Source: a virus
IMG/VR virus record: IMGVR_UViG_3300030331_003801
Span: 1 to 31,440 of that record
DNA: 31,440 bases
Strand: one strand, 5' to 3'
A program made the translations under genes and the position numbers. Positions 15,347 to 28,874 of this stretch are shown in pieces (position 1 is the first letter of the stretch; each line of letters begins with the position of its first letter). Below the pieces are notes generated by a model. That model was not told the origin of the DNA and ran no database searches. It saw only the letters and a list, made by a program, of their open reading frames with translations.

Positions 15347-15727
15347 TTAAAATTTAACATATTTGAAATCTTTTCTATTGTTAAAGGTAATAATTAAATC
15401 TTCATTTTCTTTATCCCATTTTATATCACCTTTTATTTTTTGAGGGTTTATATATAATATTCCATCATAGCAGCCCCATATAATTACAGAATTTATTCTT
15501 TTGTCTATAAGTTTTATAAGCTTTCTAGCTAAAATTTTTAAGGGAAACGCTTGCCTTATTGTAGTTTCCAATACATATACTTCCGCATATCCCTTAATTA
15601 TATTGTTTACATCAACTAACTTGTAGGCAACATCTTGATAGCCAAGTTTTTTAAACGCCAATCCTTTAAGTTCGGTAAACGCAGACAATGTCTTTTTTTC
15701 TGCTGACACAATTAAATTTAATTCCAA
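15347..15727 (-). CDS. Conserved-looking phage hypothetical protein
   Basis: The 126-aa protein has mixed alpha/beta character. The N-terminal segment LIVSAEKKTLSAF is followed by VNNIIKGYAEVYVLETTIRQ and VIIWGCYDGILYINP. The alternating hydrophobic strands suggest a compact soluble fold. I have the impression of similar proteins in phage early regions but cannot name a function. It is the last gene of the minus-strand operon and lies one base downstream of the metallophosphoesterase gene, so the two are probably co-translated. Confidence 0.55.
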   Translation of the reverse strand: MELNLIVSAEKKTLSAFTELKGLAFKKLGYQDVAYKLVDVNNIIKGYAEVYVLETTIRQAFPLKILARKLIKLIDKRINSVIIWGCYDGILYINPQKIKGDIKWDKENEDLIITFNNRKDFKYVKF

Positions 15728-15728
15728 T

Positions 15729-16448
15729 TTATAATTCCATTAAACAATTTATAGCAGTGTGACCTCCTATAACAACCCCACAACCTATAGCTTGTCGTTT
15801 AAAATTTTTTGCATAGGCAGCAGCGTAACTTTTGGCATCAATTCCACAACCTACCTGCATACCAAATACCCTAAACTTTTTTCCAACATACCACTGCACA
15901 TAAGCGGAGGTATGAGTGTGACCACATACTGAAGACATCATATTATTTCTTGCCTTCATTGCAGCTTGACTTCCTTCGCCGTGCTCATATAAAACTTCAT
16001 CATAAATAACATTTTCTAGCCATCTCCATTTATACGTACCTAGTACATCATTATAACTTTTAATCCATCTCTTTGGTATTTGTGAATCGAAAGCTCTTCG
16101 CATTATCATACGATCGTGGTTTCCTATCATAACATCTGCTTTAGGAAAACTTGCATACCATTTCTGTACATCCTCAATAGCAAGCTCAAGCTCATCACCA
16201 CCACCCAGCCCATCAGGATCAGTAGTGTGAAAACTAGAGTAATGATTGTCGATAATATCGCCGATAAAAATAGTTTGATTACAATTGTATTTTGCGTAAA
16301 TGTTTTCACAGAACTCTAAATACCCAGTCAAAGTAAACGGGGCGTGAAGATCACCTATCACTAATATCCGTCTTTCTTTCTTGGTTAAATTTTCGTATGC
16401 CGCTCTTTTATTTCCAGAGAGGCGTGGTCTTATTTGGTTAAAACTCAT
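15729..16448 (-). CDS. Calcineurin-like metallophosphoesterase
   Basis: The 239-aa protein carries all the metal-binding motifs of the family in order: GDLH (Asp33, His35), GDIIDNH (Asp64), GNHD (Asn110, His111), a single His at 156 in YEHGEG, and GHTH (His177, His179). It should be a di-metal hydrolase of phosphomono- or phosphodiesters. Phage members are often annotated as DNA- or nucleotide-processing enzymes, but the substrate cannot be read from sequence. It lies at the distal end of the replication operon. Its first 11 bases overlap the end of the upstream 62-aa gene. Confidence 0.85.
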   Translation of the reverse strand: MSFNQIRPRLSGNKRAAYENLTKKERRILVIGDLHAPFTLTGYLEFCENIYAKYNCNQTIFIGDIIDNHYSSFHTTDPDGLGGGDELELAIEDVQKWYASFPKADVMIGNHDRMIMRRAFDSQIPKRWIKSYNDVLGTYKWRWLENVIYDEVLYEHGEGSQAAMKARNNMMSSVCGHTHTSAYVQWYVGKKFRVFGMQVGCGIDAKSYAAAYAKNFKRQAIGCGVVIGGHTAINCLMEL

Positions 16449-16626
16449 CTTGAAGGTTATCTTTCATGTGTCTGAGCTTTGTTATAAGTTGAGTAATGTC
16501 TGTATTTAATTCTTGATATTCTTGATCTATAAGGTTCTCATATATATTGGCTACCGATTCATTCAACTCATTCATAATATGATTGACGTTGCTTATCCTC
16601 TTTCGCTCTAATACAGATAACTTCAT
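16438..16626 (-). CDS. Small helical hypothetical protein
   Basis: The 62-aa protein is charged and apparently entirely helical, with a heptad-like spacing of hydrophobic residues that could form a coiled coil (NVNHIMNELNESVANIYENL). No homologue is recognised. The gene is accepted because it overlaps the metallophosphoesterase gene by 11 bases, lies 4 bases after the upstream gene and fills the operon without leaving a gap. Confidence 0.5.
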   Translation of the reverse strand: MKLSVLERKRISNVNHIMNELNESVANIYENLIDQEYQELNTDITQLITKLRHMKDNLQDEF

Positions 16627-16630
16627 CTTA

Positions 16631-16858
16631 TTACTGCTCTCTTAACATCATACCCCCCCAGTATTTGTCTATTGTTTTTATAATTCTATATATTTTTCTT
16701 GATTGTTTCTTTGCGTTTTCTATCTCTGACTTTGAAGACGTTCGTCCTAAATTACAATATAAATCCGCATCTATTTCTAATAACTTGTCTATCTTTTTTT
16801 TATTATTCCAAGATGTAAATCCTGCAATCTTTTCAATATCTTCAATAGTATATGTCAT
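16631..16858 (-). CDS. Small basic hypothetical protein
   Basis: The 75-aa protein is Lys-rich and helical. Its N-terminus (YTIEDIEKIAGFTSWNNKKK) has the look of a small helix-turn-helix, with a Leu/Ile-rich second helix, but no definite DNA-binding signature was identified. It sits 24 bases downstream of the DnaA-like gene and 4 bases upstream of the 62-aa gene, in the same operon. A regulatory or DNA-binding role is possible. Confidence 0.5.
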   Translation of the reverse strand: MTYTIEDIEKIAGFTSWNNKKKIDKLLEIDADLYCNLGRTSSKSEIENAKKQSRKIYRIIKTIDKYWGGMMLREQ

Positions 16859-16882
16859 AAACTGTAAACAATCTATTTAAAG

Positions 16883-17431
16883 TTAAATAATTTTTTCCAA
16901 ATTTTTGTTTAATACATCATATTTTTGCTTCATGTGATGTGGTTCGTATCCATAATTTTTTTTAGCTAAATGAAAAAAATCGTCATACTCTTTTAATAAA
17001 GCATTTTTAATAAACCTTTTTAAGTTGTCGCACTTTTCGTTTAAGTAAATATTTTGCTCTATTAAATCATCTATTGTAAAATATTGATCTTTTGAAGTAG
17101 CAGTAGAAAGTTTTTTTGTTAATTCCTCTCTAAGCTCATGATATGGATCTAAATACTCTCTGTCGTTTGTAAACTTTAAATTTTCAAATTGTTGTAATCC
17201 GTGCATAACTGTTGCGTGATTTTTATTTACCATTTCGGCTATTTGATTTAAAGAACAAAAAGTAAAATCTTTACACAACCTATAAAATATATATCTTGCG
17301 TAAACGTGAGAGCGAACTCGTGTTACTACATCTAAGTTTACTTGAAATTTGTTTTCTACAATTTTTTTTATTATTTGTAAAGACCTAGTGTATTTAGGTC
17401 TCATTCTTGATTGTCTTTTTTTGCGTCTCAT
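16883..17431 (-). CDS. DnaA domain-IV-like DNA-binding protein (182 aa)
   Basis: Residues about 40-90 match the DNA-binding domain IV of bacterial DnaA: ARYIFYRLCKDFTFCSLNQI followed by AEMVNKNHATVMHGLQQ, with the hallmark His72-x-Thr-Val. There is no AAA+ ATPase domain, so this is a stand-alone binding module plus a helical C-terminal half (about 105-182). DnaA domain IV recognises DnaA boxes in the major groove; a phage copy could mark the phage origin or compete with host DnaA. The annotated start overlaps the upstream gene by 38 bases. A second ATG at codon 10 (17404) would reduce this to 11 bases and is equally possible. Confidence 0.75.
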   Translation of the reverse strand: MRRKKRQSRMRPKYTRSLQIIKKIVENKFQVNLDVVTRVRSHVYARYIFYRLCKDFTFCSLNQIAEMVNKNHATVMHGLQQFENLKFTNDREYLDPYHELREELTKKLSTATSKDQYFTIDDLIEQNIYLNEKCDNLKRFIKNALLKEYDDFFHLAKKNYGYEPHHMKQKYDVLNKNLEKII

Positions 17432-17744
17432 GTGATTTAATTAAATTTAAATAGTCTAAATATTCGTCGCTATCTGTTATATCAAACTTATAAAAAACAG
17501 GATAGCCTTCTCTAATTGTTATAAAATGGACTTTAAAAAACAAAGCCCTTTCTATATTGACCACACCAACCATATAGTTTAAAGGTAGTGTTAAGCCTTC
17601 ATCAGATATTTTTATAGCAGCGATATCTATTTGTTGAATAATTGTGGCTGCATATTTTTTTGGTAATGATTCGATTTCTTCCAAAAGCTCTACTTCTAAT
17701 TGATATATAAACTCATCCCCTGTATACTTCTGCGAAAAATCCAT
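17394..17744 (-). CDS. Hypothetical protein, possibly toxin-like/RelE-like in layout
   Basis: The 116-aa protein shows a helix-rich first half (FIYQLEVELLEEIESLPKKY) and strands such as YMVGVVNIERALFFKVHFIT and YPVFYKFDITDSDEY. This order loosely recalls RelE/ParE-type or phage-derived Gp49-like folds, but no diagnostic residues are present and I would not assign one. The gene overlaps the VRR-NUC gene by 32 bases and the DnaA-like gene by up to 38, so it is embedded in the replication operon. Confidence 0.5.
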   Translation of the reverse strand: MDFSQKYTGDEFIYQLEVELLEEIESLPKKYAATIIQQIDIAAIKISDEGLTLPLNYMVGVVNIERALFFKVHFITIREGYPVFYKFDITDSDEYLDYLNLIKSHETQKKTIKNET

Positions 17745-17952
17745 AACTTTTTAATTCTTTTATTCTATATTCTTGAAGCTTTGATAGCTTTCCATTCTTT
17801 CTTTTAATCTCAAAAAATTTCACTCCTTTATCTTTATGTAGTGCAACTAGATCAGGTATACCATTCTTATTTGTTTGAACAAGTTTTATTACATAAAAAC
17901 CTTCAGCTTCAAGCTCTTTGATTTTCTTTGACTGAATTTGCTGTTCGGTCAT
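17713..17952 (-). CDS. VRR-NUC family nuclease
   Basis: The 79-aa protein is the minimal VRR-NUC (PD-D/E-x-K) fold. An N-terminal helix is followed by GIPDLVAL (Asp34), FFEIKRKNGKLSKLQ (Glu48-x-Lys50, Gln60) and a closing helix-strand. Phage proteins of this size are typical stand-alone members and are thought to cut branched or Holliday-type DNA structures. Its ATG lies one base after the stop codon of the SNF2-like helicase, matching the known linkage of VRR-NUC domains with such helicases. The pair probably acts on recombination or replication intermediates. Confidence 0.85.
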   Translation of the reverse strand: MTEQQIQSKKIKELEAEGFYVIKLVQTNKNGIPDLVALHKDKGVKFFEIKRKNGKLSKLQEYRIKELKSYGFFAEVYRG

Positions 17953-17953
17953 A

Positions 17954-19189
17954 TCACAAAGTTAAGAATTCCTTTTTAAAAATACTTGTGGTATAATCTC
18001 GTTTGTTTATTACTGCCTTGTATATTTTATTCTCAATACCGTTATTAGAAAATATCCAGTATAACTTATTTTCTTTTGTATACTTTGTAGTCATTCGATC
18101 ACGAGACTGCCAGTAACTTGTTGCGCTATAATCTATATTGTAATAAACGAGGCAATCTGCCTCTTTTAAACTTATACCTTCTCGCCCACTTTGAATTTGT
18201 AAAGCAATTGATTTAGTTTTTACTTCTTTAAACTCATCTAAATCAGTAGTTAATTTATCTTCAAAAACTTTTTTCAATACATCAAGCTCTGCTTTATATT
18301 TGTAAAATATTCCAATCTTTTTATTATGAAAAAATTTTTTAATAAACTCAGCCTTTGATAGATCTAGTATTTGAGTAGCACCGCTTTCAAATTTTATTGT
18401 TCCAGAATAGATTTGATGAAGCTTAGTCATTAACTTTATAGGTGTGTCACCTAATATTACCTCATCCTTTCCTTCAACAACTCTATCTTTTCGTAATCTT
18501 TTAGCTATATCGTATGTCTGCTCTTGCATTTGAACCTTCAATATTTGTTCAAATGTTTCAACTTTAAAGCCTGCTTGCTTTTGTGAAAAGGAAATCATAT
18601 ATGGTTTCATTTTTTCCATAATCTCTCTCTTTCCGTTCGAGTAATCTCTTACAATCAAACCGTTAAATTTTTTTTCAGTTACATTAATATATTCACGAGC
18701 AAACTTATAAAAGCTGGTGTGTTCTCGAAAAGGATTTCCAGGGCACATATAGATCTGATGATATATTTGGCTAAAGTTTTCTGGAGTAGGAGTGCCAGAC
18801 ATTAAAATGACATAAGGTTTTTGTGTGTCTACTAAATTTTTAACCATCTGGCTTCTCTTGCTAGGTTTTTGAAGTTTGCCCATGCAATGAGCTTCGTCTA
18901 AAATTAAAAAGTCGCAACGCTTCCTAACTTTATGTAAGCTTTCATAATTAATTATTTCAATATCAAATGCGGGATTTAGTAGATCATAATCTTTTTGAAT
19001 AAATGATATAGCTTTTTTCTTTGTAACAAAAAGAACTGATGTAGCATTCATGTTTTGACAAATACCTAGTGAGGTTAATGTTTTACCTGTTCTAACCTCC
19101 ATAGCTAAATAAACAAACTTATGGATGTTCAATATTTTAATTGAACTATTTATTATTGTAGTTTGATAATCTCTAAAACGGAACTTCAT
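17954..19189 (-). CDS. SNF2/DEAH-type superfamily 2 helicase
   Basis: The 411-aa protein has the superfamily 2 motifs in order: Walker A EVRTGKT (31-37), motif II DEAH (98-101), motif III SGTP (131-134), and late motifs QSGREGISLKEAD and QSRDRMT that form motifs V and VI. The layout matches the short SNF2-like helicases of phages, which translocate on double-stranded DNA and probably remodel replication or recombination structures. Its first 17 bases overlap the end of the primase-helicase gene, and the VRR-NUC gene follows after one base. Confidence 0.85.
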   Translation of the reverse strand: MKFRFRDYQTTIINSSIKILNIHKFVYLAMEVRTGKTLTSLGICQNMNATSVLFVTKKKAISFIQKDYDLLNPAFDIEIINYESLHKVRKRCDFLILDEAHCMGKLQKPSKRSQMVKNLVDTQKPYVILMSGTPTPENFSQIYHQIYMCPGNPFREHTSFYKFAREYINVTEKKFNGLIVRDYSNGKREIMEKMKPYMISFSQKQAGFKVETFEQILKVQMQEQTYDIAKRLRKDRVVEGKDEVILGDTPIKLMTKLHQIYSGTIKFESGATQILDLSKAEFIKKFFHNKKIGIFYKYKAELDVLKKVFEDKLTTDLDEFKEVKTKSIALQIQSGREGISLKEADCLVYYNIDYSATSYWQSRDRMTTKYTKENKLYWIFSNNGIENKIYKAVINKRDYTTSIFKKEFLTL

Positions 19190-21575
19190 TTTCTTCTTCA
19201 GTTTGTTTAAATATAATCCATCTACCTGTATGATCTCGCCCCTCTTCTGCAGGTTCTTTATATTTATACATACTATAAGAATGTAACCATTTATAAAAAC
19301 GCGTTCTGCTTATTGTCATTTTTGCTTTTGGTGCATAGTCTGGGTATTCGTTTATAAATTCAAAATACAATTCATTTTTATATATACGAGTGTTAGGCAT
19401 AAGTTTGGTGTTCGGCTCTATACCTTTTAATAACCCACACCATTCTATGAAATCGTGTGAAGTTTCAGCAGACAACTGTCTAACTTTTAGGTTCACAAAC
19501 TGTGATTCAATTAAACCTGTTCTTAAGTAAGTTTGCAAACAAGATATCATATAGTTATCAAATTCACACCACTCGTTGTCATCCCAATCTCCAAAAAATA
19601 GTTTACCAAACTCGTCTAAAGGGGTGTTTTGTTTATTGTAATGTTGATGAAGCTCTAGTTCCCACTTTCTTCTAGCAAAACTATTTCCCGCTCCTCGAAT
19701 TGCATAATTAGTGGTTATTGCAATCTTTGGACTCTTGCTGAATGGTATCTTTATAGCGTCCTTGTTTTTCTTTTCAAGAGTAAGACCTTCAGTTACTACA
19801 CTAAACAATCTCTCAAAGTCAAAATATTTTTTTACATCATCAAAACATAGTATCTGGGTGTCGGCTGATACTAATTGATATGCAAAAGACTTTTCAAATG
19901 CAAATGACTTTCCGTCTATTGTAACAAGCTTTTTCATGTGCGATAGTGCATTCATAAAAATACCTTTACCTGTTCCGCCCTCTGGATTGTCGGATATAAC
20001 CTCGTCATTAAGAATAACAGCAGGACAATAAGATAAATTTTTATGTCCGTGCATCAAAAATCCGATAGTAGATTTAAATGATTCAATTCTATCTTGGTCG
20101 TCTCCACAAATATTATTAATGAAAGTTTTATAATCTGATCCACTACCTTCACACACCTTAAACATTCTATCTATCACATGGTCTTTCCATACATACCCCC
20201 CAAGATCTAAATAATCTATGGTTGTAACCTCGTCTTTAGATATTCTAACAGCACAATTCTTATAATATAAATAAGAAGTGTTTTGCGTATCTGCTATAAA
20301 ATATATATCAATAGTGCTTAAAAGAGTTAGAAATTCCTCTCTAAATAGCCTAGTTTGGTCTGCAAAGTAATTGTATACTGACACATCTTCATAATGATAC
20401 AGGCTATCTAAAACAAAATCTTTGATTTCTTTTTCGCTTGTGTGATCAATAAGGTTGTTAGTTACTTTTACAAAAACATAATTCTTACTACCCTCTGGAC
20501 AATATTTATAAAAACCGTTATCCTCTAAAAACTTTTTAAAGACAATAGGTATAGCTTTGATTACACCTTTGTCACTTTTACTCCAAAATTTTACGCTTTC
20601 CTCCTCTGCTTTTTCTAACACGGAGTCTATGACCTCCGTCTCCAATTCCAACTCCTCTAATTGACGACGGATAACTTTTTTTGCCTCTCCCCGTTTTAAT
20701 CGTTGGGTTATATGATTAATTGTTTCAGTATCCTCGTAATATTTAGTTCCAAAATTTACCGTGTTACTGTAAGCTGAATTTATGGTTGTTTCAATTTCTT
20801 TTTTTGTAAAGGTAGATGATGAGTATTGGTTACACACATATTCAGCTAAACCTTTGTTGATTCCATAGTCATTAAATGCCATAGCTAATACATACACATT
20901 GTGGTTTCTTTGACCTTCATTCATTGGATAGTTTTTCTGCCACCATTTTACTAATATGTCTACTATTTTATTTTCATCTGATATTTTTATAGTGGGCTTG
21001 TCTCTGTAAGTATTCTTTTCTTTGTACTCCTCCTCTGCTAATGTTTCCCAAACAAAGGAGTTCTCATTTATATATATTAACGGATCATAAGACTCATAGC
21101 ATACTCTGCTTATATTTTTTGTTGTCCTATCAAAGTAATTTGAATTAAATTCTTTTTCTAAAGCATTGAAATATTTGCTGTGATTCTCGGCGTCTGGTGG
21201 TATTCTTACTAATACTTTTAAACCATTACCGCTTGGAGAAACAAATATGCTGTGAACATATTTATTTTTTATAAACCTTTCTTTGTCTTGTAATAAATCT
21301 TTTTGCTTTGGATAGCCGTCAAAGTCTAAACAAATAATACCGCTATGCTCTATAATTGAAGTGTCTTTTCGTTTGTTAAACTTTCCGCTGAAACATATTG
21401 CGGGTAATTTTTTTTTAAGTTCGTTTCTTTTATTCTTATCATCCTCGCCCCTTATTTCAGCAATTAAATCTTTTGAAGTTCCCTCCTTGATTCTTTTTAA
21501 AATAACATTTAACTCCCTGTAAAAAGGCGCTTCAGTTTCTTTAATGTTTTGAAATATAGTTATCGTATTCTCCAT
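19173..21575 (-). CDS. Primase-helicase (VirE/BT4734-like N-terminus, SF3-type helicase C-terminus)
   Basis: The chosen start is the ATG at 21575 (800 aa); a TTG at 21599 would add eight residues read from a hairpin and is less likely. Residues about 1-165 match the VirE/BT4734-like primase-associated domain, with IICLDFDG near 77-85 and SPSGNGLKVLVRI near 109-122. A PriCT-like helical segment follows at about 210-285. The C-terminal part carries a Walker A loop NPEGGTGKG (about 528-537), Walker B ILCFDD (about 573-580) and an ITTNY sensor (about 618-623), as in SF3/D5-type helicases. It should synthesise primers and unwind DNA at the phage fork. The N-terminal type is characteristic of Bacteroidetes mobile elements and phages, which supports the host assignment. 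Confidence 0.85.
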   Translation of the reverse strand: MENTITIFQNIKETEAPFYRELNVILKRIKEGTSKDLIAEIRGEDDKNKRNELKKKLPAICFSGKFNKRKDTSIIEHSGIICLDFDGYPKQKDLLQDKERFIKNKYVHSIFVSPSGNGLKVLVRIPPDAENHSKYFNALEKEFNSNYFDRTTKNISRVCYESYDPLIYINENSFVWETLAEEEYKEKNTYRDKPTIKISDENKIVDILVKWWQKNYPMNEGQRNHNVYVLAMAFNDYGINKGLAEYVCNQYSSSTFTKKEIETTINSAYSNTVNFGTKYYEDTETINHITQRLKRGEAKKVIRRQLEELELETEVIDSVLEKAEEESVKFWSKSDKGVIKAIPIVFKKFLEDNGFYKYCPEGSKNYVFVKVTNNLIDHTSEKEIKDFVLDSLYHYEDVSVYNYFADQTRLFREEFLTLLSTIDIYFIADTQNTSYLYYKNCAVRISKDEVTTIDYLDLGGYVWKDHVIDRMFKVCEGSGSDYKTFINNICGDDQDRIESFKSTIGFLMHGHKNLSYCPAVILNDEVISDNPEGGTGKGIFMNALSHMKKLVTIDGKSFAFEKSFAYQLVSADTQILCFDDVKKYFDFERLFSVVTEGLTLEKKNKDAIKIPFSKSPKIAITTNYAIRGAGNSFARRKWELELHQHYNKQNTPLDEFGKLFFGDWDDNEWCEFDNYMISCLQTYLRTGLIESQFVNLKVRQLSAETSHDFIEWCGLLKGIEPNTKLMPNTRIYKNELYFEFINEYPDYAPKAKMTISRTRFYKWLHSYSMYKYKEPAEEGRDHTGRWIIFKQTEEENEVPF

Positions 21576-21628
21576 AAAAAAAAGGAGGTGGCAAACCAAT
21601 TAATATGAAAAAAAGAAATCCACCTCCC
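21576..21628 (-). terminator. Hairpin plus T8 directly before the primase ATG (attenuator candidate)
   Basis: In transcript sense, GGAGGTGG (21627-21620) pairs perfectly with CCACCTCC (21591-21584) around a 28-base loop, and eight T residues (21583-21576) follow. The ATG of the primase-helicase comes immediately after. This has the shape of an intrinsic terminator placed inside an operon, so it may be partial. The left arm also contains a perfect anti-16S sequence (GGAGGTG) that has no start codon at the right distance. Confidence 0.55.
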
Positions 21629-21649
21629 GATTTGATTGTTATTAAATTT

Positions 21650-21904
21650 TTACACCCAATCGAGTTCTTCTGACTCTTTAGGCGCTTGTGTCGGTTCCCA
21701 TGTATCTATTTCAGCATAGGGATTTCCGTCCTTTGAGATTTTTAGATCAATGTTAAGCCAACCGCTTTTATGATTGTCTTTCATTGTTGCTGTAAAATCT
21801 TTGCAATTTATTGCAAGAGTACCGACTATAAAGTCTGGTCTTCCTGCTTTTTGTTTAAAAATTAATCCGTTTGGAAAAATTTTATCTTCGCTTTTATTTG
21901 CCAT
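21650..21904 (-). CDS. Small single-stranded-DNA-binding-like protein
   Basis: The 84-aa protein is predicted mostly beta: FPNGLIFKQK, FIVGTLAINCKDFTATM and WLNIDLKISK alternate like the strands of a small OB fold. The C-terminus is acidic and ends with an aromatic and hydrophobic residue (ESEELDWV), as in SSB tails that recruit replication partners. It lies between the RecE-like nuclease and the primase-helicase genes, which is where an SSB would be expected. The assignment is by composition and context; it is shorter than bacterial SSB and may be a different OB-fold protein. Confidence 0.5.
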   Translation of the reverse strand: MANKSEDKIFPNGLIFKQKAGRPDFIVGTLAINCKDFTATMKDNHKSGWLNIDLKISKDGNPYAEIDTWEPTQAPKESEELDWV

Positions 21905-21924
21905 AATTATATAAATTAAATTAA

Positions 21925-22725
21925 TTATAAAACCCCTGTAATAATTAAGGATTCTATGTCTTCAGTAGGATTATCGCCGTGTAATCTATTATATTCGCTC
22001 ACAGCTTTTTCTACTTTTGCTTTTCCACTTTCTATGAATTGATCAGAGCAAGTAAATACTCCCACATCATAATAGTTTTTTTTAGTCCTAACGCTGTACT
22101 TTTTCTCTTTACCTATAACAACAAATATCATAGGCATAGAAAAGAGTTCTTGATATATATAAGCTTGACTATCGTAATAATAAAAAGGTGCATTACGTAT
22201 GAATTTACGCACATCTCTTGATGACTTTACATCTATGATAACAGGAGAGTTGTCTTTATCTCTAGTTATTATATCTGCCTTTCCTTTAAAATTTAAGCCG
22301 TGCATTTTTTTTATCATTGGCGTTTCGTATTGAGCGTCAAAGTTTGTTATCCACTCTTGTATGGAGGTTGTTTTTGGATTGTTCTCGTCCATAAACCAAT
22401 CTACAATTTCTTTAATCTCATCCGCTTCACTTCTTTTTAAAGCGAAACTTACATTGTTATCCTCGCAAAATTTTTTATACTTCGCGTCTCTACGGACAAC
22501 ATCTGCTATGAGAAAATCTTTTGCTTTCGCTGGTTCTAGGATAAGCTGGTGCATATAGCGACCTTTAGCAAAGTTCTCGTTATCCTCTATTTTATTTCCG
22601 TACTGCTCTGGATCTTCGATCAAAGTTTGAATATCGGAATTTGAGATATACTGACGCCCTAAATCGCCGTAGTACTCCTCGTCGCTTCGTAATCTTTCGA
22701 TTATTTTAACTTCTTTTTTTGACAT
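21925..22725 (-). CDS. RecE-like PDDEXK exonuclease
   Basis: The 266-aa protein carries a PD-(D/E)XK nuclease core: KGRYMHQLILEP (54-65, including His59), FKGKADIITRD (Asp141), PVIIDVKSSR (Asp155, Lys157) and a downstream YDSQAYIYQ motif (Gln177). This order matches RecE/exonuclease VIII and the DUF3799 family, which resect double-stranded DNA ends 5' to 3'. The start overlaps the end of the annealing-protein gene by 20 bases. The two probably form a two-component recombination system like RecET or lambda Red. Confidence 0.85.
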   Translation of the reverse strand: MSKKEVKIIERLRSDEEYYGDLGRQYISNSDIQTLIEDPEQYGNKIEDNENFAKGRYMHQLILEPAKAKDFLIADVVRRDAKYKKFCEDNNVSFALKRSEADEIKEIVDWFMDENNPKTTSIQEWITNFDAQYETPMIKKMHGLNFKGKADIITRDKDNSPVIIDVKSSRDVRKFIRNAPFYYYDSQAYIYQELFSMPMIFVVIGKEKKYSVRTKKNYYDVGVFTCSDQFIESGKAKVEKAVSEYNRLHGDNPTEDIESLIITGVL

Positions 22726-23359
22726 CTTCTAAAAATTGCTCTAACTCTTTATCATCTTTAACTTTATATTTAGTAGCAAGAGATTTTATTATTTTCTCTG
22801 CTGAAAATCCATTCTTTTGATGTTCTAAATATTTATTTAAAGCTTCTTCCCAATTATCAACTAGTAATGTTACCTCTGGAGTTTTCTCGTCCTTTGCTTT
22901 TGCCTTTGCTTTTGCCTTTGGTTTTGACTTAAGTGCGGGCTTCTCGTCCGCTTCCTCGCTTGGAAAACTCTCATTCTTATATATATAAAAACCTAGTCCA
23001 AACATTGCTAGATTTTTAGTTAAGCAACGCATTAAACAGCTATTGATGTCAAATGAGTTTGGTTCAAATATTGGTTTATTATTATAATTAAGTATAGGTA
23101 ACCACATTTGTAGTGTTTCCCCTTCGATAGTAACTGATGTATGACAAAACCCTCCTACTTTTTCCTCGAAAGAATAAGGTTGATTTGTTTCTGGATTTAC
23201 ATAATAAGTATATGTTGCGCTTGGAAATCTTTTTTTGACTTCTGCCCAAGCGTGCGACCAAGATAGGTAAGTAAACTGACCTCTCTTTTCTGTGTATTCA
23301 TTGACATTTATCTGTGATAAAGTGTCAAAAGTGCTTAGTTTTTGATTTGATTTATTCAT
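22706..23359 (-). CDS. DUF1071-type single-strand annealing protein
   Basis: The 217-aa protein begins with the DUF1071/Sak-type pattern: YLSWSHAWAEVKKRFPSATY, then MWLPILNYNNKPI and the conserved INSCLMRCLTKNLAMFGLG helix. These proteins anneal complementary single strands in phage recombination. A Lys-Ala-rich linker (SKPKAKAKAKAKDE, about 143-156) joins the core to a C-terminal helical region (about 165-217) that may recruit a partner. It precedes and overlaps the RecE-like exonuclease gene, the usual partner of an annealing protein. Its own start overlaps the upstream gene by 8 bases. Confidence 0.8.
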   Translation of the reverse strand: MNKSNQKLSTFDTLSQINVNEYTEKRGQFTYLSWSHAWAEVKKRFPSATYTYYVNPETNQPYSFEEKVGGFCHTSVTIEGETLQMWLPILNYNNKPIFEPNSFDINSCLMRCLTKNLAMFGLGFYIYKNESFPSEEADEKPALKSKPKAKAKAKAKDEKTPEVTLLVDNWEEALNKYLEHQKNGFSAEKIIKSLATKYKVKDDKELEQFLEDVKKRS

Positions 23360-23750
23360 TTTGATTTAATTTTTGGGTGATAAGATAATATTTTTTTGTG
23401 ATTTGTTCCCTACTTTGTTTAAATAATTTTATTCTTTTGGCGCTTTTAGTTGTATTTAACTCTATTGCCATTTGCTTTTTTATGTTCTCAAGTTTCTCTT
23501 TATACTTTTGAAGTGTCACTAAATAGACTCCTCGTTTCCATCCATGATTTGTATATAACATATAGTCCTGGTCACTACACTCTCGATAATATTCTCCTTT
23601 TTTAGTTGGATCATAGATCTTGATCATACCCTCCTCGTCCTTTGTGATTTTAACTCCAAGCAACATAAAGGCATAATAATTTTCTGCGGATAAATTGCAG
23701 GTAGAAAAATCGTTAGACGCCTCCTTGAAAATTTGATCAAGGTTAAACAT
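23352..23750 (-). CDS. Hypothetical protein of the recombination cluster
   Basis: The 132-aa protein has a helical N-terminus, a short central strand region (YMLYTNHGWKRGVYLVTL) and a long basic C-terminal helix (KYKEKLENIKKQM onward) that could form a coiled coil. No domain is recognised. It overlaps the DnaA-like gene by 8 bases upstream and the annealing-protein gene by 8 bases downstream. Translational coupling with these suggests a role in the same replication or recombination step. Confidence 0.55.
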   Translation of the reverse strand: MFNLDQIFKEASNDFSTCNLSAENYYAFMLLGVKITKDEEGMIKIYDPTKKGEYYRECSDQDYMLYTNHGWKRGVYLVTLQKYKEKLENIKKQMAIELNTTKSAKRIKLFKQSREQITKKYYLITQKLNQNE

Positions 23751-24039
23751 TTACCTTTGATAGTTTATCAACAATTTTTTTTAGATCAGGGTCGTTAAGA
23801 TGTTGTTCCATCATTTTTAACCCATACAATATAGTTTGATGGGCAATCGGATGATTATTTTTTTCCATATAGTTTTGTATATCCACAAGTTTCATTCCTC
23901 GTTCGTAACATATATAGTATAAAAAATGCCTACCCATTACAAGCTCGGTGGCTTGGTTCTTTTCAAAAAGTTTTTTCGGTTTTATTTGCAGGTGTTGTGC
24001 AATGTTATTTGCCACCTTCATAAAAATTTCATATTTCAT
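23743..24039 (-). CDS. Second DnaA domain-IV-like protein (98 aa)
   Basis: Residues about 30-80 resemble DnaA domain IV: GRHFLYYICYERGMKLVDIQ followed by a loop and HPIAHQTILYGLKMME, where His67-Gln-Thr-Ile takes the place of the usual His-x-Thr-Val. There is no ATPase domain and the whole protein is little more than the DNA-binding module. The other DnaA-like gene of this window is 6 kb away in the same operon. The two differ enough that recent duplication is unlikely. A role in origin recognition or in gene regulation is inferred. Confidence 0.65.
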   Translation of the reverse strand: MKYEIFMKVANNIAQHLQIKPKKLFEKNQATELVMGRHFLYYICYERGMKLVDIQNYMEKNNHPIAHQTILYGLKMMEQHLNDPDLKKIVDKLSKVNV

Positions 24040-24042
24040 AAT

Positions 24043-24276
24043 CTAATCTAATAATATTAAGTACGCCTTCGCGTTGTTAGTTCTAAACCAATCCAATCCC
24101 CTGCGTAAGCCGTCCCAATTTTGTATCATTTGACATCCCATAGTATAATCGTATATACTTAATTCTAAATTGTTAAGGGTGTACTTCTCTCCAGAGAATT
24201 GATTTGTTACTTCTGCACCCTCCTCGTAAATTATTCCCTCGAACCATTTAGGAGGTTGTTGTTTCTTTTTAGTCAT
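24043..24276 (-). CDS. Conserved small phage protein (PPKWFEGIIYEEG type)
   Basis: The 77-aa protein has a well-formed pattern that I recognise in marine phages without a known function: PPKWFEGIIYEEGAEVTN, a conserved middle (LELSIYDYTMGCQM) and an end with GLDWFRTNNAKAYLILLD. The aromatic and Gly positions suggest a compact fold. Its start codon overlaps the stop codon of the upstream micro-gene in an ATGA arrangement (24273-24276), so it is probably translated by re-initiation. It lies 3 bases before the small DnaA-like gene. Confidence 0.65.
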   Translation of the reverse strand: MTKKKQQPPKWFEGIIYEEGAEVTNQFSGEKYTLNNLELSIYDYTMGCQMIQNWDGLRRGLDWFRTNNAKAYLILLD

Positions 24277-24431
24277 AGTTTATTTATTGCATTATTTATC
24301 TGCTCGTCTGTATAGTTATCCTCTTTTAAAAAGTTTCTAATTTCTTGTACAGCGCCCTCTCCTAAATTTTCCCAATCAGTATTTTGTACAGAGCAAAATA
24401 AATCAATCCATTCTTTTAAATCTTTTTCCAT
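24273..24431 (-). CDS. 52-aa acidic micro-protein
   Basis: The 53-codon frame encodes a 52-aa acidic protein beginning MEKDLKEWIDLFCSVQNTDW and ending NNAINKL. The last 20 residues (YTDEQINNAI region) look like a short helical pair. No homologue is recognised. Its stop codon overlaps the ATG of the next gene (ATGA), its start is 2 bases after the upstream stop, and the frame fills a gap that would otherwise be empty. These three points are the reason for calling it. Confidence 0.6.
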   Translation of the reverse strand: MEKDLKEWIDLFCSVQNTDWENLGEGAVQEIRNFLKEDNYTDEQINNAINKL

Positions 24432-24433
24432 AA

Positions 24434-24589
24434 TTATAATTTTAAATCGTTTATAAGTTTATTAATAAACTCATCTTGATCAGATGAACTTAAGGCGTTC
24501 TTTCCTCGTTGGAAAGTTATAAGCGCGTTCCTCGTGTTAGATATTTTTTTCTGAAGCGCTTGTGTTGAAAGATATAAAAACTCATTCAT
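24434..24589 (-). CDS. 51-aa micro-protein
   Basis: The frame encodes 51 aa beginning MNEFLYLSTQALQKKISNTR. It is basic in the middle and acidic near the end (SSSDQDEFINKLINDLKL). No domain is recognised. The start codon overlaps the upstream stop codon (ATGA at 24589-24586). Two copies of the TCCTCGT motif lie inside it and force CGA and AGG arginine codons, which are otherwise uncommon here. Confidence 0.6.
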   Translation of the reverse strand: MNEFLYLSTQALQKKISNTRNALITFQRGKNALSSSDQDEFINKLINDLKL

Positions 24590-24741
24590 AACTTTAAATC
24601 TTCAATAGCGTTTTGCAGTTCTTCAATCTTATCCTGGATTCCATCCAAGTCCCAATTTAATTTGGGGTCTTTATCGGTACGAGCGTTGTAGCATTCCTCG
24701 TAAACTTCATCAAGTAAAGTCATTATATGTTTTACATTCAT
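24586..24741 (-). CDS. 51-aa acidic micro-protein
   Basis: The frame encodes 51 aa beginning MNVKHIMTLLDEVYEECYNA and ending ELQNAIEDLKL. It looks like two acidic helices and could be a small protein-binding or anti-host factor, but nothing specific is recognised. Both ends overlap neighbours by the ATGA arrangement (24738-24741 and 24586-24589), which places it in a chain of translationally coupled genes. Confidence 0.6.
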   Translation of the reverse strand: MNVKHIMTLLDEVYEECYNARTDKDPKLNWDLDGIQDKIEELQNAIEDLKL

Positions 24742-24953
24742 AACTCTAAAAGTTTTAATTTGCGTTTGTACTTCCTGGCTAGGTTTGTCTTAAAAATAAT
24801 TTTTTTGATTACCTCTTTGTCTCGAACGCTTGTAAGCTGATCTAATCTTAACCTCTCGCATTCGTTATGCAAGCTGATCATAAATTTATATACATAAATC
24901 TTATGTCGCTTGACTCGGTTTCGTGTCTGAAAATATGTTAGTATAGATTTCAT
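24738..24953 (-). CDS. Small basic hypothetical protein
   Basis: The 71-aa protein is strongly basic with Arg/Lys-rich helices and could bind nucleic acid. The longest frame starts at 24953 and overlaps the upstream zinc-finger-like gene by 53 bases. The internal ATG at 24881 (47 aa, starting MISLHNECERLRL) would avoid the overlap and is a reasonable alternative. The stop codon overlaps the next ATG (ATGA), which supports the reading frame. Confidence 0.5.
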   Translation of the reverse strand: MKSILTYFQTRNRVKRHKIYVYKFMISLHNECERLRLDQLTSVRDKEVIKKIIFKTNLARKYKRKLKLLEL

Positions 24954-25095
24954 TTAATTTGATTTGATTATCGTAGTAAATCTTTTCACGCTTGTTACAC
25001 TCTCGGCAGTAAAAAACTTCCTCGCTATATTCTCCATAGTAGTTATAGCTTTCTATTTTTTTCTTATCGGGTGGACAATTTTTGCAAAAAGACAT
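24901..25095 (-). CDS. Small zinc-ribbon-like protein
   Basis: The 64-aa protein has two Cys pairs, FCKNCPP (Cys4, Cys7) and FYCRECNKRE (Cys30, Cys33), spaced as in a zinc ribbon. The remainder is charged and helical. Such mini-proteins in phages often regulate transcription or bind RNA polymerase, but that is only a family-level possibility. It lies 31 bases downstream of the 37-aa frame at 25127-25240. Confidence 0.6.
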   Translation of the reverse strand: MSFCKNCPPDKKKIESYNYYGEYSEEVFYCRECNKREKIYYDNQIKLNEIYTNIFSDTKPSQAT

Positions 25096-25126
25096 TTATA
25101 AAATTTGTATAAAATTAGTAAAAAAT

Positions 25127-25240
25127 TTAGTTCTTATCTACTAATCGTGATAGTTTTTTTATTACTCTTTTTATTTCCTCCTGGTTAAGTGTTTGAGCAA
25201 TAAGAATTATTGCTTTGACTTTTTTTTGATATTCATACAT
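25127..25240 (-). CDS. 37-aa basic micro-protein
   Basis: The frame encodes 37 aa beginning MYEYQKKVKAIILIAQTLNQ and ending KKLSRLVDKN. It is a single amphipathic basic helix pair. It fills the gap between the zinc-ribbon gene and the hairpin at 25257-25303. Support is limited to its position, its ATG after an A/T-rich leader and its clean frame, so it may be spurious. Confidence 0.4.
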   Translation of the reverse strand: MYEYQKKVKAIILIAQTLNQEEIKRVIKKLSRLVDKN

Positions 25241-25256
25241 AATTGATTCTTATTTT

Positions 25257-25303
25257 AAAACCCCCCTCACTAGAGTAATGACTCGTCGTTGACTATTGGG
25301 GGG
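25257..25303 (-). terminator. C6/G6 hairpin with short T-tract after the Api92-like gene
   Basis: In transcript sense CCCCCC (25303-25298) pairs with GGGGGG (25266-25261), and TTTT follows. Inside the long loop a second perfect stem GAGT-CATT-ACTC forms. The structure begins 7 bases after the stop codon of the 180-aa gene. It could terminate or pause transcription between the proximal and distal parts of the early operon. Confidence 0.45.
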
Positions 25304-25310
25304 CAGACTT

Positions 25311-25853
25311 TTAATCCTCGTGATAAAATTCTTCTAAAGTTTCGTAATATTGGTCTCCTAGATTTGCATAGCAGTACCAACCGCTTGGAAAAGTTACTCC
25401 TCTTTCCCTTTCAAAATCATAAGGCAAATAATAAAATTCGTCTTCGTTCTCGTCGTGTTTAGGATTCTCCCACACCCAGTCTGGTTCGTCCCACTCTTTC
25501 TCAAATATTATCTCTCCGTTGCTGAACTCAATCTCTCCTCCCCATCCCTGTTCCTCCTCGTATATATAAATGAAGTTGGGAACTGATTTTGCCAATGTGC
25601 GTAAAAAAGAATAACTCATCTTGTCCCACGCAGTCTCGAAATGAAGGAAACCATTATAGTATGATTGACGACAAGCGCCCCATTTGTTTCCCCATTGAAA
25701 AAGATTCCACTCGTACCAGTCTTCGTCGTCAGCAGGACGGGGGATAAGCAACATTGCTATTCCCCCCTCAAGTTCTTCGCTCTCCTCGTGCAAAAGTTTT
25801 AATGTTTCCTTTTTGTCTGTTGTTTTAACAGAATTATAAACCCAGTTTGGCAT
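25311..25853 (-). CDS. Api92-like / DUF1281 family phage protein (ferredoxin-like fold)
   Basis: The 180-aa protein starts with MPNWVYNSVK, the hallmark of the Api92/YubB-like family, and has the family middle with NLFQWGNKWGACR, an FETAWDKMS segment and a C-terminal region rich in Trp, Tyr and acidic residues (FPSGWYCYANLGD). The fold is ferredoxin-like. These proteins occur in phages and plasmids; their function is unknown. The gene lies 3 bases downstream of the 86-aa gene and is followed by the C6/G6 hairpin. It is strongly acidic overall, unlike most of its neighbours. Confidence 0.8.
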   Translation of the reverse strand: MPNWVYNSVKTTDKKETLKLLHEESEELEGGIAMLLIPRPADDEDWYEWNLFQWGNKWGACRQSYYNGFLHFETAWDKMSYSFLRTLAKSVPNFIYIYEEEQGWGGEIEFSNGEIIFEKEWDEPDWVWENPKHDENEDEFYYLPYDFERERGVTFPSGWYCYANLGDQYYETLEEFYHED

Positions 25854-25856
25854 AAC

Positions 25857-26117
25857 TTAATATATTACAGGTATTACAGGAAGGTCTTTGATATTTGTTG
25901 AAATAGCGCCCCCGTCATTACCTTCATCATCTGCCATAGGTACAAGCCAATATTTATTATCAAGCTGTATTGCGATAGGTACTTTGTACCAATCATATCG
26001 TTTCGCTTCCTCGTTAGGTAGGTATTGAATTTTTGTAATCTTCTTTCCAAGTAGTGCTTTTTCAACCCTCCTCGTCCAAAGCTTTCTAATCTTCTGATCG
26101 TGTGTAGTTTTGCTCAT
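25857..26117 (-). CDS. Conserved small phage protein (DDEGNDGGAI type)
   Basis: The 86-aa protein shows a clear conserved core: GKKITKIQYLPNEEAKRYDW, then PIAIQLDNKYWLVPMADDEG, NDGGAI and a final LPVIPVIY. I have seen this pattern in phage hypothetical proteins; it looks like a small beta-barrel. Its start overlaps the end of the upstream 83-aa gene by 32 bases, and the Api92-like gene follows 3 bases later. Function unknown. Confidence 0.65.
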   Translation of the reverse strand: MSKTTHDQKIRKLWTRRVEKALLGKKITKIQYLPNEEAKRYDWYKVPIAIQLDNKYWLVPMADDEGNDGGAISTNIKDLPVIPVIY

Positions 26118-26337
26118 TGTAAGGAAATTTAATGTTTAACTTTAATTTTTTGAATGTTCTAGACGCTTCCTGGAAATTTTCAAGGTAGCGTTCGTCTCTA
26201 TATCCTCGATAGTCGGGGTGGTAAACTCCTCGTATCTTCATAATTGCTAGCGTCAAATCGTGGACGATAGCCAAATCGCTTGAGGGGAAATCGTTTATTA
26301 ACTCGAAAAACTCCTCGTCTTCTTTTATTTGTGTCAT
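26086..26337 (-). CDS. Hypothetical acidic protein
   Basis: The 83-aa protein has an acidic N-terminus (MTQIKEDEEFFELINDFPSS) and a middle with IRGVYHPDYRGYRDERYLEN. No domain is recognised. Two CGA-GGA (Arg-Gly) pairs in this stretch coincide with copies of the TCCTCG motif. The gene follows an untranslated leader of about 92 bases that contains a small hairpin and overlaps the next gene by 32 bases. Confidence 0.5.
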   Translation of the reverse strand: MTQIKEDEEFFELINDFPSSDLAIVHDLTLAIMKIRGVYHPDYRGYRDERYLENFQEASRTFKKLKLNIKFPYNEQNYTRSED

Positions 26338-26362
26338 AGTTTTATTTTTAAATTTAACAATC

Positions 26363-26382
26363 GGGGATCTAAATTGACCCCC
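26363..26382 (-). other. Leader hairpin upstream of the 83-aa gene
   Basis: In transcript sense GGGGTC pairs with GA-T-CCCC (one bulged T) around a six-base loop. It sits in the 92-base untranslated gap 26338-26429, about 25 bases before the ATG at 26337. The transcript-sense sequence GGGGGTCAA also resembles the GGGGTCA repeats near 30.15-30.31 kb. Confidence 0.35.
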
Positions 26383-26429
26383 ACGCTCTACACTTAATGT
26401 TCTCTTTAAAGTCGTGCAGTCGACTAGCC

Positions 26430-26585
26430 CTATATTATTTTTTTTAAGTTCTCTAAATCGTTATTTATTTTCTCGATAAGTTTAATTATCGGACGCTCGC
26501 TCGCGTTTCTTGTCGGACGCGTTGGCGTCTCGACAATTTCAATTTCATTAAGTAATTTGATTATCTCTTTAATATTAAGTTGCAT
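26430..26585 (-). CDS. 51-aa micro-protein
   Basis: The frame encodes 51 aa beginning MQLNIKEIIKLLNEIEIVET, with a central Arg-Pro-rich stretch (PTRPTRNASERP) and a basic helical end (INNDLENLKKII). It overlaps the last 11 bases of the amidotransferase fusion gene, a common arrangement in this operon. No domain is recognised. It is called on its start context, clean frame and overlap. Confidence 0.5.
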   Translation of the reverse strand: MQLNIKEIIKLLNEIEIVETPTRPTRNASERPIIKLIEKINNDLENLKKII

Positions 26586-27654
26586 AATAAAAGTCATTAT
26601 AGTTCTCGTCTTCTAAGGGCGTGCAATACTCTAAGCAGTTGTGACAATAAAACTCGTTAGCGTGTGTATCGTAGTCCAACATCTCCGCGCATGTTGGACA
26701 CTCCTCGAATAACTTTTCCGTCTCTCGTACTATCTGCGGGATAATTTCCGTGCGGTGCGGTGGCGTATAAGTTGGCGTGTATGTGTAATCATAGTACCAA
26801 TTATGAAAATATCTTTTAGATACCTTAAACTCGTCCGTTAACTCCTCGTCTTTGAACTTTATCTTATCGTTAAAGTAAAGCCAACAATTTAAAGTTTTGC
26901 CTTTTACTTTTATTGGTGTCTTCCTCCTCTCGTAGTGGTTGGGGTGTCCCTCTAAACTATCAAGACGCGCTAAACATTCTTTGTTTACTTTGTAAACTTC
27001 GACTTTGATATGATGTCCCTTTCCTTTCTCGTCTATTACATAAGGAATCCCCCTAGATACCATTGGAAATTTAAAAGCAGTTGTCCCTTTGCCTACAAAG
27101 TTTTGAGCAGTTAATAAATAGTGGTTACCTCCGTTCTTTTTGAGTGTACCATATACAGCGACTAGCGTATCTTTTTTAAATCTAGTATTAGAGAATAAAA
27201 TCCCGTCTAACTTCGTCCACTTCTCGCGGTTGAAGATTTGATAAAACTTCTTTCTCGTATTTATGGTAACGAATCGGCAGTCATATTTTGCCAATGCTTT
27301 TTTCCATAATCTACGGGGTGCAAGTGGTAACAATTCAGCAAGCGCTTGAGTATCGCATTTATCGGTATTGCCTAACTCGTGAATCGTCCCGTTTTGGTAT
27401 AAGCTTTCGTCCGTGTTGGGAATCTTAAACGGGTGTATGTTAGCTTTGTTTATCTTCCCTATTGTCGCGTATCTAAAGTGCGCAATATAAGGGCGGTTAC
27501 TTTGTAGTATCGCCCATTGTTTCGATTTTAATTTAATCGTAGTATAATCATCTAGCCAAGTAATCCCTAGTCCGTGCGGGTTTAACTTACTAGCGGAATC
27601 AAGCGTCTGCTTTGACAATCTCTTTCCCTTTTTATTTATAATTATTAAACACAT
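26575..27654 (-). CDS. Class II glutamine amidotransferase fused to gamma-glutamyl cyclotransferase and zinc ribbon
   Basis: The 359-aa protein has three parts. Residues 1 to about 160 are an N-terminal-nucleophile amidotransferase: Cys2 after the initiator Met, HFRYATIG at 59-66, IHPF, NGTI at 88-91 and a CDTQ motif near 100. These match the glutaminase site that releases ammonia from glutamine. Residues about 163-265 are a GGCT/AIG2-like cyclotransferase with VYGTLKK (167-173) and LDSLEGHP, where Glu235 is the expected catalytic acid. Residues 319-340 are a zinc ribbon (CPTC and CHNC). It is the first gene of the early operon, and a terminator separates it from the amidoligase gene just upstream. 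Together these suggest making and breaking of amide or gamma-glutamyl bonds. The substrate is unknown. Confidence 0.85.
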   Translation of the reverse strand: MCLIIINKKGKRLSKQTLDSASKLNPHGLGITWLDDYTTIKLKSKQWAILQSNRPYIAHFRYATIGKINKANIHPFKIPNTDESLYQNGTIHELGNTDKCDTQALAELLPLAPRRLWKKALAKYDCRFVTINTRKKFYQIFNREKWTKLDGILFSNTRFKKDTLVAVYGTLKKNGGNHYLLTAQNFVGKGTTAFKFPMVSRGIPYVIDEKGKGHHIKVEVYKVNKECLARLDSLEGHPNHYERRKTPIKVKGKTLNCWLYFNDKIKFKDEELTDEFKVSKRYFHNWYYDYTYTPTYTPPHRTEIIPQIVRETEKLFEECPTCAEMLDYDTHANEFYCHNCLEYCTPLEDENYNDFYYAT

Positions 27655-27673
27655 ATTTATTTGATTTGATTTA

Positions 27674-27681
27674 CAAAACTA
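27674..27681 (-). promoter_or_regulatory. Bacteroidetes-type -7 element for the early operon (TAGTTTTG)
   Basis: In minus-strand sense TAGTTTTG matches TAnnTTTG and ends 19 bases before the ATG at 27654. No TTG is found at the usual -33 spacing; a TCCTCGT copy lies about 28 bases upstream instead (27709-27715). It is the only candidate promoter found for the roughly 12-kb early operon. Confidence 0.5.
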
Positions 27682-27777
27682 ATACTTTTTTTCTACATTA
27701 TATATACTTCCTCGTAAATCTTTATTTCGTACTCTTTCGTTTCTCGTTTTTATCAACTTGAATTTTTCTGGACTTCA

Positions 27778-27818
27778 TCAGATCTAACCAGGTCCAGACC
27801 AGGTGCAAACCAGATCGA
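27778..27818. repeat. Four helically phased 9-bp repeats (iteron-like)
   Basis: Four copies of a YCAGRTSNA motif follow each other: TCAGATCTA (27778), CCAGGTCCA (27788), CCAGGTGCA (27799) and CCAGATCGA (27810). The starts are 10, 11 and 11 bases apart, about one helical turn, so a protein could bind all copies on one face of the DNA. The region is non-coding. It may be an origin iteron set or an operator array for the early promoter. Confidence 0.65.
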
Positions 27819-27828
27819 AAAGCTATTG

Positions 27829-27855
27829 TGATCTAAAAAAAATATATTTAGATCA
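27829..27855. repeat. Inverted repeat with 9-bp arms and AT-rich centre
   Basis: TGATCTAAA (27829-27837) and TTTAGATCA (27847-27855) form perfect arms around nine A/T bases. It lies 11 bases after the phased repeats and shares the core GATCTA with the first of them. It could be a dimer-binding site or an easily melted origin element. Confidence 0.6.
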
Positions 27856-27884
27856 GACAAATTGAAAGCACATAAAACAGGGGT

Positions 27885-27910
27885 AAAAAAAAGCCCGCAA
27901 TTAAGCGGGC
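27885..27910 (-). terminator. Intrinsic terminator of the amidoligase operon
   Basis: In transcript sense GCCCGC pairs with GCGGGC around a six-base loop, followed by eight T residues (27892-27885). It begins 25 bases after the amidoligase stop codon. This is the clearest intrinsic terminator on the minus strand and separates the amidoligase operon from the early operon. Confidence 0.85.
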
Positions 27911-27935
27911 AATTTTCAAGAGATAAGAATTTATA

Positions 27936-28874
27936 TCAGTCGACTAATTCAAATCCCATAGGGTGCGCGTAATCGTTGTCATTTGAGCGCGCATAGTCGG
28001 GCAAAAAGCCAACTATACTTCGACTACATTTGCCCGTATCGATTAGCTTTTGAAAGTCGATAGCATAATCAACGATACTATTAACGCGGGCGCTGTCGAT
28101 ACTTCCATCAGCGCGCGTATACATACGCTCGAGTATTGGGCGAACTCTTTTAATAGCCGTATTGAACCGAGCGTTGGGACTATTGACGGCAATATCTACC
28201 AACTCGAAAAATAACTCATAACGCCTAATTAACGAACCCGTTGACGATACAGCGGACGGCAAACGCCACTCTAAAAGTCCCCCGCCTTTGCAAGTAGTAA
28301 CGCCCCTATTGGTGCGCCCATACTCTAAAAACATATTGCCGTTACAAGTCGGACGCGATAATCTACCTTTATATAAAGCGTAAATTATACCCGCGTGCGG
28401 TCTCATTCTTGCGCGAAGCTGTTTTGAATCCAACCCTTCAGCGCGTAGTGTTATATGACCCCCGCAAGATATATCATAGGGACTATCCAACACGGGTGAC
28501 GCGTTAACTATCATATTCATAACCTTATTACGAAGATAGCCCATAGGGACTAGCGGTAGAATATTTGTGATAGCTTCCCCGCTATTGCCCCCGTGCGACA
28601 ATGAACTATCGGACTCATAACCTTTAAACAGCGCATATTCTTTGCGCGCGCTAGAATCTATATCAGTTTTTTCAACTTCAAATCCTATCGTAAAGTTTGA
28701 ACGAACATATTTTTTGCCCGCGTCAACATCTCTAAAATATCGCGACTTAACGCCTTTGAAATCGGCACGCGTTACGAGTGATAAATCACGGGGGTTTGCC
28801 CCCCCGTGATACCCATACTGGCGCGCACGCGTTCGGTCGCCCGTAGGTGCGAAATGAATTGTGTTTCTACTCAT
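27936..28874 (-). CDS. GS-fold amidoligase (ATP-dependent COOH-NH2 ligase)
   Basis: The 312-aa protein carries the signature positions of the amidoligase family: GFEVE (Glu66, Glu68), a DSSL motif (Asp89), Glu100 before a NILPL strand, CGGH (His140) and LEWRLPSA (Glu202, Arg204). These correspond to the metal- and ATP-binding residues of the glutamine-synthetase-like fold. Members ligate amines to carboxyl groups and are often encoded beside glutamine amidotransferases and GGCT-like cyclotransferases; here such a fusion is encoded at 26575-27654. The N-terminal 55 residues are Arg-rich and unassigned. The gene uses many CGC/CGT/GCG codons, unlike the AGA-rich late genes. Its ATG overlaps the upstream stop by 8 bases, and a terminator follows. 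The target could be a protein, peptidoglycan peptide or metabolite. Confidence 0.8.
   Translation of the reverse strand: MSRNTIHFAPTGDRTRARQYGYHGGANPRDLSLVTRADFKGVKSRYFRDVDAGKKYVRSNFTIGFEVEKTDIDSSARKEYALFKGYESDSSLSHGGNSGEAITNILPLVPMGYLRNKVMNMIVNASPVLDSPYDISCGGHITLRAEGLDSKQLRARMRPHAGIIYALYKGRLSRPTCNGNMFLEYGRTNRGVTTCKGGGLLEWRLPSAVSSTGSLIRRYELFFELVDIAVNSPNARFNTAIKRVRPILERMYTRADGSIDSARVNSIVDYAIDFQKLIDTGKCSRSIVGFLPDYARSNDNDYAHPMGFELVD

Follow-up and report, generated by a model that had tools for sequence, protein, structure and literature searches.

Why does one operon of a phage carry the same short word over and over, always in one orientation? The question is raised by IMGVR_UViG_3300030331_003801, a complete IMG/VR record of 31,440 bases classed as linear, which we analysed over its whole length and refer to as the window. 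Relatives of its primase were found on contigs of up to ~60 kb, so that the record probably represents about half of a genome. Profile searches of the window proteins recognised a BT4734-like N domain in the primase, as well as a crAss muzzle C-terminal domain, a Sak annealing protein and an exonuclease, and tblastn matched the window to Flavobacterium, Polaribacter, Nonlabens, Cellulophaga and Bacteroides phages; together, these matches point to a probable Bacteroidetes phage. The operon that carries the word is called early here, a provisional label derived from its genes and from a predicted host-type promoter in the related locus L010.

Copies of the word and their placement

Exact counting over the whole window returned 26 plus-strand copies of TCCTCG between 19692 and 27714/27715, 18 of which extend to TCCTCGT. 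On the minus strand, which is how the transcript reads, the word is CGAGGA, with A as the preferred preceding base (ACGAGGA, 18 of 26); CGAGGA never occurs on the plus strand, giving 26 sense and 0 antisense copies. The base that follows is G in 12 copies, A in 9, T in 5 and C in none, and the site amounts to a 6-bp core with two weak flanking preferences. CGAGG is found once on the plus strand, at 18148, and there are three near matches CCTCG, at 20000, 20228 and 24237. An earlier note made by eye from the sequence had every one of its counts, and the strand bias, exactly right; the spacing of about 230 bases that it gave is close to the measured median of 240, the copies being spaced irregularly, in a manner indistinguishable from random placement.

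The copies and the features around them are as follows; gene starts were called mechanically.

19692..27715, minus strand: motif-bearing stretch with 26 CGAGGA (18 ACGAGGA)
21600..27719, minus strand: dense block with 23 copies, equated with the early operon (genes from the GGACT-like one through the exonuclease, plus a gene of 84 aa)
27893..27910, minus strand: intrinsic terminator parting the early operon from the upstream genes
27709..27715, minus strand: lone non-coding copy, 55 nt upstream of the first early gene
26575..27654, minus strand: first early gene, gamma-glutamyl cyclotransferase-like (GGACT), copies at 26702 and 26843
26356..26425, minus strand: predicted Pistol self-cleaving ribozyme within the early operon (RF02679, 50 bits)
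26086..26337, minus strand: small early ORF, copies at 26203, 26227 and 26312
25857..26117, minus strand: small early ORF, copies at 26008 and 26069
25311..25853, minus strand: early ORF, copies at 25315, 25555 and 25783
24901..25095, minus strand: small early ORF, copy at 25019
24586..24741, minus strand: small early ORF, copy at 24695
24434..24589, minus strand: small early ORF, copies at 24503 and 24529
24043..24276, minus strand: small early ORF, copy at 24221
23743..24039, minus strand: DnaA domain IV-like helix-turn-helix protein (Pfam Bac_DnaA_C, below the curated cut-off), copy at 23896
23352..23750, minus strand: early ORF conserved in relatives, copies at 23529 and 23632
22706..23359, minus strand: Sak single-strand annealing protein, copies at 22953 and 23163
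21925..22725, minus strand: PD-(D/E)XK exonuclease, copies at 22460 and 22676
19173..21599, minus strand: primase, last three copies at 19692, 20731 and 21442
15347..19172, minus strand: downstream same-strand genes (helicase and others), no copy

Twenty-three copies thus fall within 6.1 kb that open with the leader of the GGACT-like gene and close with the 84-aa gene preceding the primase; the density falls off in the primase, which holds three, and the 23 kb outside the block hold none. At the early density, 14.4 copies would be expected in the 3.8 kb of downstream same-strand genes and 7.1 in the 1.9 kb of minus-strand genes upstream, beyond the terminator, against 0 observed in either; the 15.2 kb of late genes are likewise free of the word. 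Non-coding DNA is not preferred (1 copy versus 1.5 expected), 25 of the 26 copies lying inside genes. Copies located 15-75 nt after start codons are in excess in the window (P about 0.006, post hoc), but the tendency was not seen by eye in L010, and a preference for gene starts was set aside.

The non-coding copy may lie upstream of the transcription start: about 28 nt downstream of it, at 27674-27681, is the sequence TAGTTTTG, which we take to be a possible Bacteroidetes -7 element, Bacteroidetes promoters having the -33/-7 form. The surrounding intergenic region (27655-27935) contains, in addition to the terminator, direct repeats ACCAGGT and inverted TGATCTAAA/TTTAGATCA arms, and might be an operator or an origin.

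Selection on the nucleic acid

The earlier note had expected roughly one copy in the motif-bearing stretch. The expectation is in fact higher, at 1.9 under an order-1 Markov background, 3.3 under order 2 and 5.8 (maximum 14 in 4000) in synonymous-codon shuffles that keep the proteins and the pooled codon usage fixed, yet the 26 copies observed, 25 of them coding, are nowhere near these values and the excess remains highly significant. An order-3 background was discarded because it absorbs the motif itself.

All three codon frames are used, as had been noted, albeit unequally: 17 copies read xxC-GAG-GAx, 6 read CGA-GGA and 2 read xCG-AGG (shuffle means of 4.5, 1.06 and 0.26, respectively), and one is non-coding. 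Most copies therefore employ common Glu codons, and the rare CGA and AGG codons that the word was thought to force are found in just eight, although these two costly frames together exceed their expectation of 1.3 as well. Codon choice tells the same story. Within the motif genes, the ratio of GAG to GAA is 15:5 in C-GAR-GA contexts and 3:10 where GAR-GA follows a base other than C, whereas in C-GAR contexts of the downstream same-strand genes it is 0:10. The synonymous-shuffle null and this choice between GAG and GAA support the proposal that selection acts on the nucleic acid and not on the protein. A quirk of codons or composition, such as Glu-rich proteins or a codon-pair preference, or else chance, is a very improbable explanation: the prevalence of the Glu frame (17 of the 25 coding copies) and a mild excess of other frame-0 words in many relatives speak for it, but it is at odds with the shuffles, with the eight copies in the costly frames, with the lack of the word in the phage's genes outside the operon and with independent enrichment in both operon halves.

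A variant word in a relative and rapid turnover

For comparison, 80 primase and 80 GGACT loci were fetched, and none of the other relatives among them shows an enrichment of CGAGGA comparable to that of the window. No closer relatives were found in the viral_contigs collection, nor any near match among annotated phages. In a blind scan of 68 homologous early blocks, the window included, the window came out on top, followed by L142 (another handle for the L010 record), with the word CCMGGAG (9 sense, 0 antisense, 0.4 expected). The same nine sense copies of CC[AC]GGAG, with none antisense, compare with a synonymous null of 0.65 in the same operon, and CCAGGAG by itself is present seven times against 0.53 in synonymous shuffles, in all three frames (that of one gene being uncertain). 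When enrichment of a word was demanded separately in each half of the early operon, the window again ranked first among 58 operons (CGAGGA, 11+11) and L010 second (CCAGGA, 5+4). Across the whole 61 kb L010 record, 9 of 19 CCMGGAG copies fall within the 4.1 kb of the early block. The L010 enrichment was found after scanning many records, and its weight derives from the second rank combined with the near-identical word, one letter away from that of the window, the same operon, in which it has the same orientation, and the synonymous null.

The early blocks of L009 and L011 lack the motif even though they are 77% and 75% nucleotide-identical to L010 over the block, and several L010 sites differ from L009 by synonymous letters. 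Thus, the motif is real, oriented with transcription, limited to one operon and quickly evolving. Given the closeness of L009 and L011 to L010, it appears to come and go quickly, and its function would not be family-wide.

Other words proved less convincing. A general C-N-AGG-R motif is in mild excess in L013, L015 and L049 and does not persuade outside the window and L010. AGACATC (L173/L179) and CAGACMA (L215/L219) are oriented, exceed their synonymous nulls and occupy all three frames; they do not stand out in the split-half test, and count as unproven candidates of the same kind. Separately, CCAGGA/CCAGGG is enriched in the early blocks of L010, L038 and L049 and absent from those of many relatives (e.g., L057-L059 and L061) where 2-4 copies would be expected, as if CCAGG were avoided.

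Candidate readers of the word

The absolute orientation and the confinement to a single transcription unit suggest a signal recognised either on the RNA itself or by the machinery that transcribes it. Of the candidates proposed in the earlier note, a binding site for a DNA- or RNA-binding protein is the one that remains, and we have developed it further. Our tentative preference, held with somewhat less than even confidence, is that CGAGGA is a recognition word on the early transcript for an RNA-level factor, most likely an RNase or an RNA-binding regulator. The word, at its best ACGAGGA followed by G, A or T, would be written many times into the early-operon transcript and read by a factor of phage or host origin, the likeliest being a sequence-specific endoribonuclease or RNA-binding regulator, so that the whole early message could be shut off or otherwise treated at once, much as early mRNAs of T4 are inactivated by RegB at GGAG. 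Three of these steps we infer: the reading of RNA and not of DNA, the action of the reader on early messages, and shut-off as the sign of the effect.

What favours RNA is a short, uninterrupted word that sits in coding sequence with no bias towards intergenic gaps and has a GGA[G/A/T] core resembling RegB targets, which are GGAG/U in T4 early mRNAs (PMC3014915). In keeping with this reading, the copies run from the leader region down the early unit, fade in the primase and are absent downstream. Against it, the copies show no preference for predicted unpaired RNA (accessibility test, P = 0.57), the non-coding copy may precede the transcription start, and L009 and L011 lack the motif. Like the RegB targets, the word is centred on GGA and lies on the sense strand of early transcripts; unlike them, it is longer, fixed and inside coding regions, RegB sites being located mostly in intergenic translation initiation regions with an A-rich 3' context (PMC3014915). 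Its 6-7 nt are also comparable to the targets of MazF-type RNases, whose reported length is 3-7 bases. No RegB homologue, nor any other gene of RegB, RelE or MazF type, was recognised by Pfam or PHROGs in the subset of early-operon and neighbouring proteins that was scanned, from what is probably half a genome and with most early ORFs being orphans. The predicted Pistol ribozyme would indicate that the early-operon transcript can be processed, and we claim no link between it and the motif; none scored above threshold in eight nearby relatives, and none was found in L010.

A bolder reading, which we consider less likely than not, is that some phages of this Bacteroidetes-infecting group carry a lineage-specific, 6-7-letter sense-strand barcode in their early coding sequences, read by a co-evolving phage factor. 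With such a barcode the whole early message, or the DNA behind it, could be distinguished both from late messages and from relatives, at the early-to-late switch or in superinfection.

The leading rival, itself rather doubtful, is of all DNA readings the nearest to known biology and places the reader on double-stranded DNA, where a phage regulator bound to an asymmetric site would halt or modulate RNA polymerase in the transcribed orientation. The stoperators of the cluster A mycobacteriophages (L5, Bxb1 and TipsytheTRex) are asymmetric words of this kind, present in many copies of one orientation with a consensus that differs slightly among related phages (PMC9283540, PMC6550527), and the window matches them in its orientation with transcription, its copy number (26, theirs being about 20-30) and its drifting consensus. 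In addition, one copy, at 27709, is located at the putative early promoter. However, stoperators are 13-14 bp long and lie mostly in short intergenic gaps throughout the genome, whereas the word has 6-7 bp, keeps to one operon and lies in coding sequence without favouring the gaps between genes. Stoperators also have a known repressor, acting as a monomer to stop elongation, while the window offers only a weak candidate, the fast-evolving gene at 28867-29598 (minus strand), just upstream of the early operon, in which a helix-turn-helix-like segment was discerned by eye. Of all records tested, the window, L010 and L011 alone carry this gene, at 28-29% identity. Its structure model is poor (pLDDT 46) and its database matches are weak, those to Pfam helix-turn-helix families being confined to the relatives; moreover, L011 has a near-identical segment of the candidate and still lacks the motif.

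The window further encodes two separate DnaA domain IV-like helix-turn-helix proteins without an ATPase domain (16883-17431 and 23743-24039, minus strand; Pfam Bac_DnaA_C). As readers they were rejected, their recognition segments being alike in L009, L010 and L011, of which L010 alone has the motif.

The remaining candidates of the earlier note fare worse. A Chi-like role, in which a host nuclease of the RecBCD/AddAB type reads the word and spares the phage DNA, is quite unlikely. Chi is short, oriented and host-dependent, with host-specific letters, and can be over-represented in phages (PMC3784561), and a change of host would agree with the rapid turnover of the word among relatives. Chi is, however, spread along chromosomes, whereas the word keeps to a single operon of 6-8 kb; the phage also has a single-strand annealing protein and an exonuclease of its own. 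In addition, among 148 genomes drawn from the phylum around an Aureispira-labelled MAG contig (L137/G014), there was none in which ACGAGGAG stands in conspicuous excess over a reversed control; this phylum, taken as Bacteroidota, may not be the host's.

A role in replication or DNA metabolism, as a primase recognition site, a lagging-strand start or the target of a strand-specific nickase like those of phages tf, T5 and phiKMV, is improbable. The nick sites of these phages are likewise short words in many copies on one strand only, 14 TACT/RTGMC sites in the case of tf (PMC3517423), but they are spread along the genome and similarly placed among relatives, whereas the copies in the window are confined to the early operon and their positions turn over. 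The motif does start near the repeat-rich, AT-rich intergenic region at 27.65-27.93 kb, which could be an origin, but it is missing from the downstream replicon DNA, and indeed from 23 kb of the replicon. Primase recognition, as suggested in the earlier note, is further disfavoured by primases 74-79% identical to that of the window in L009, L011 and L012, which have no motif.

Collectively, the early transcripts, or the DNA that encodes them, seem to carry a tag for a recognition factor. If confirmed, this would amount to a regulatory code superimposed on genes, common to a whole operon and changing its letters between close relatives. The word is also a clean statistical example of selection on nucleic acid overriding codon choice in a virus. 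To our knowledge, early-gene control in Bacteroidetes phages is poorly understood, and a predicted target word in two phages makes it testable.
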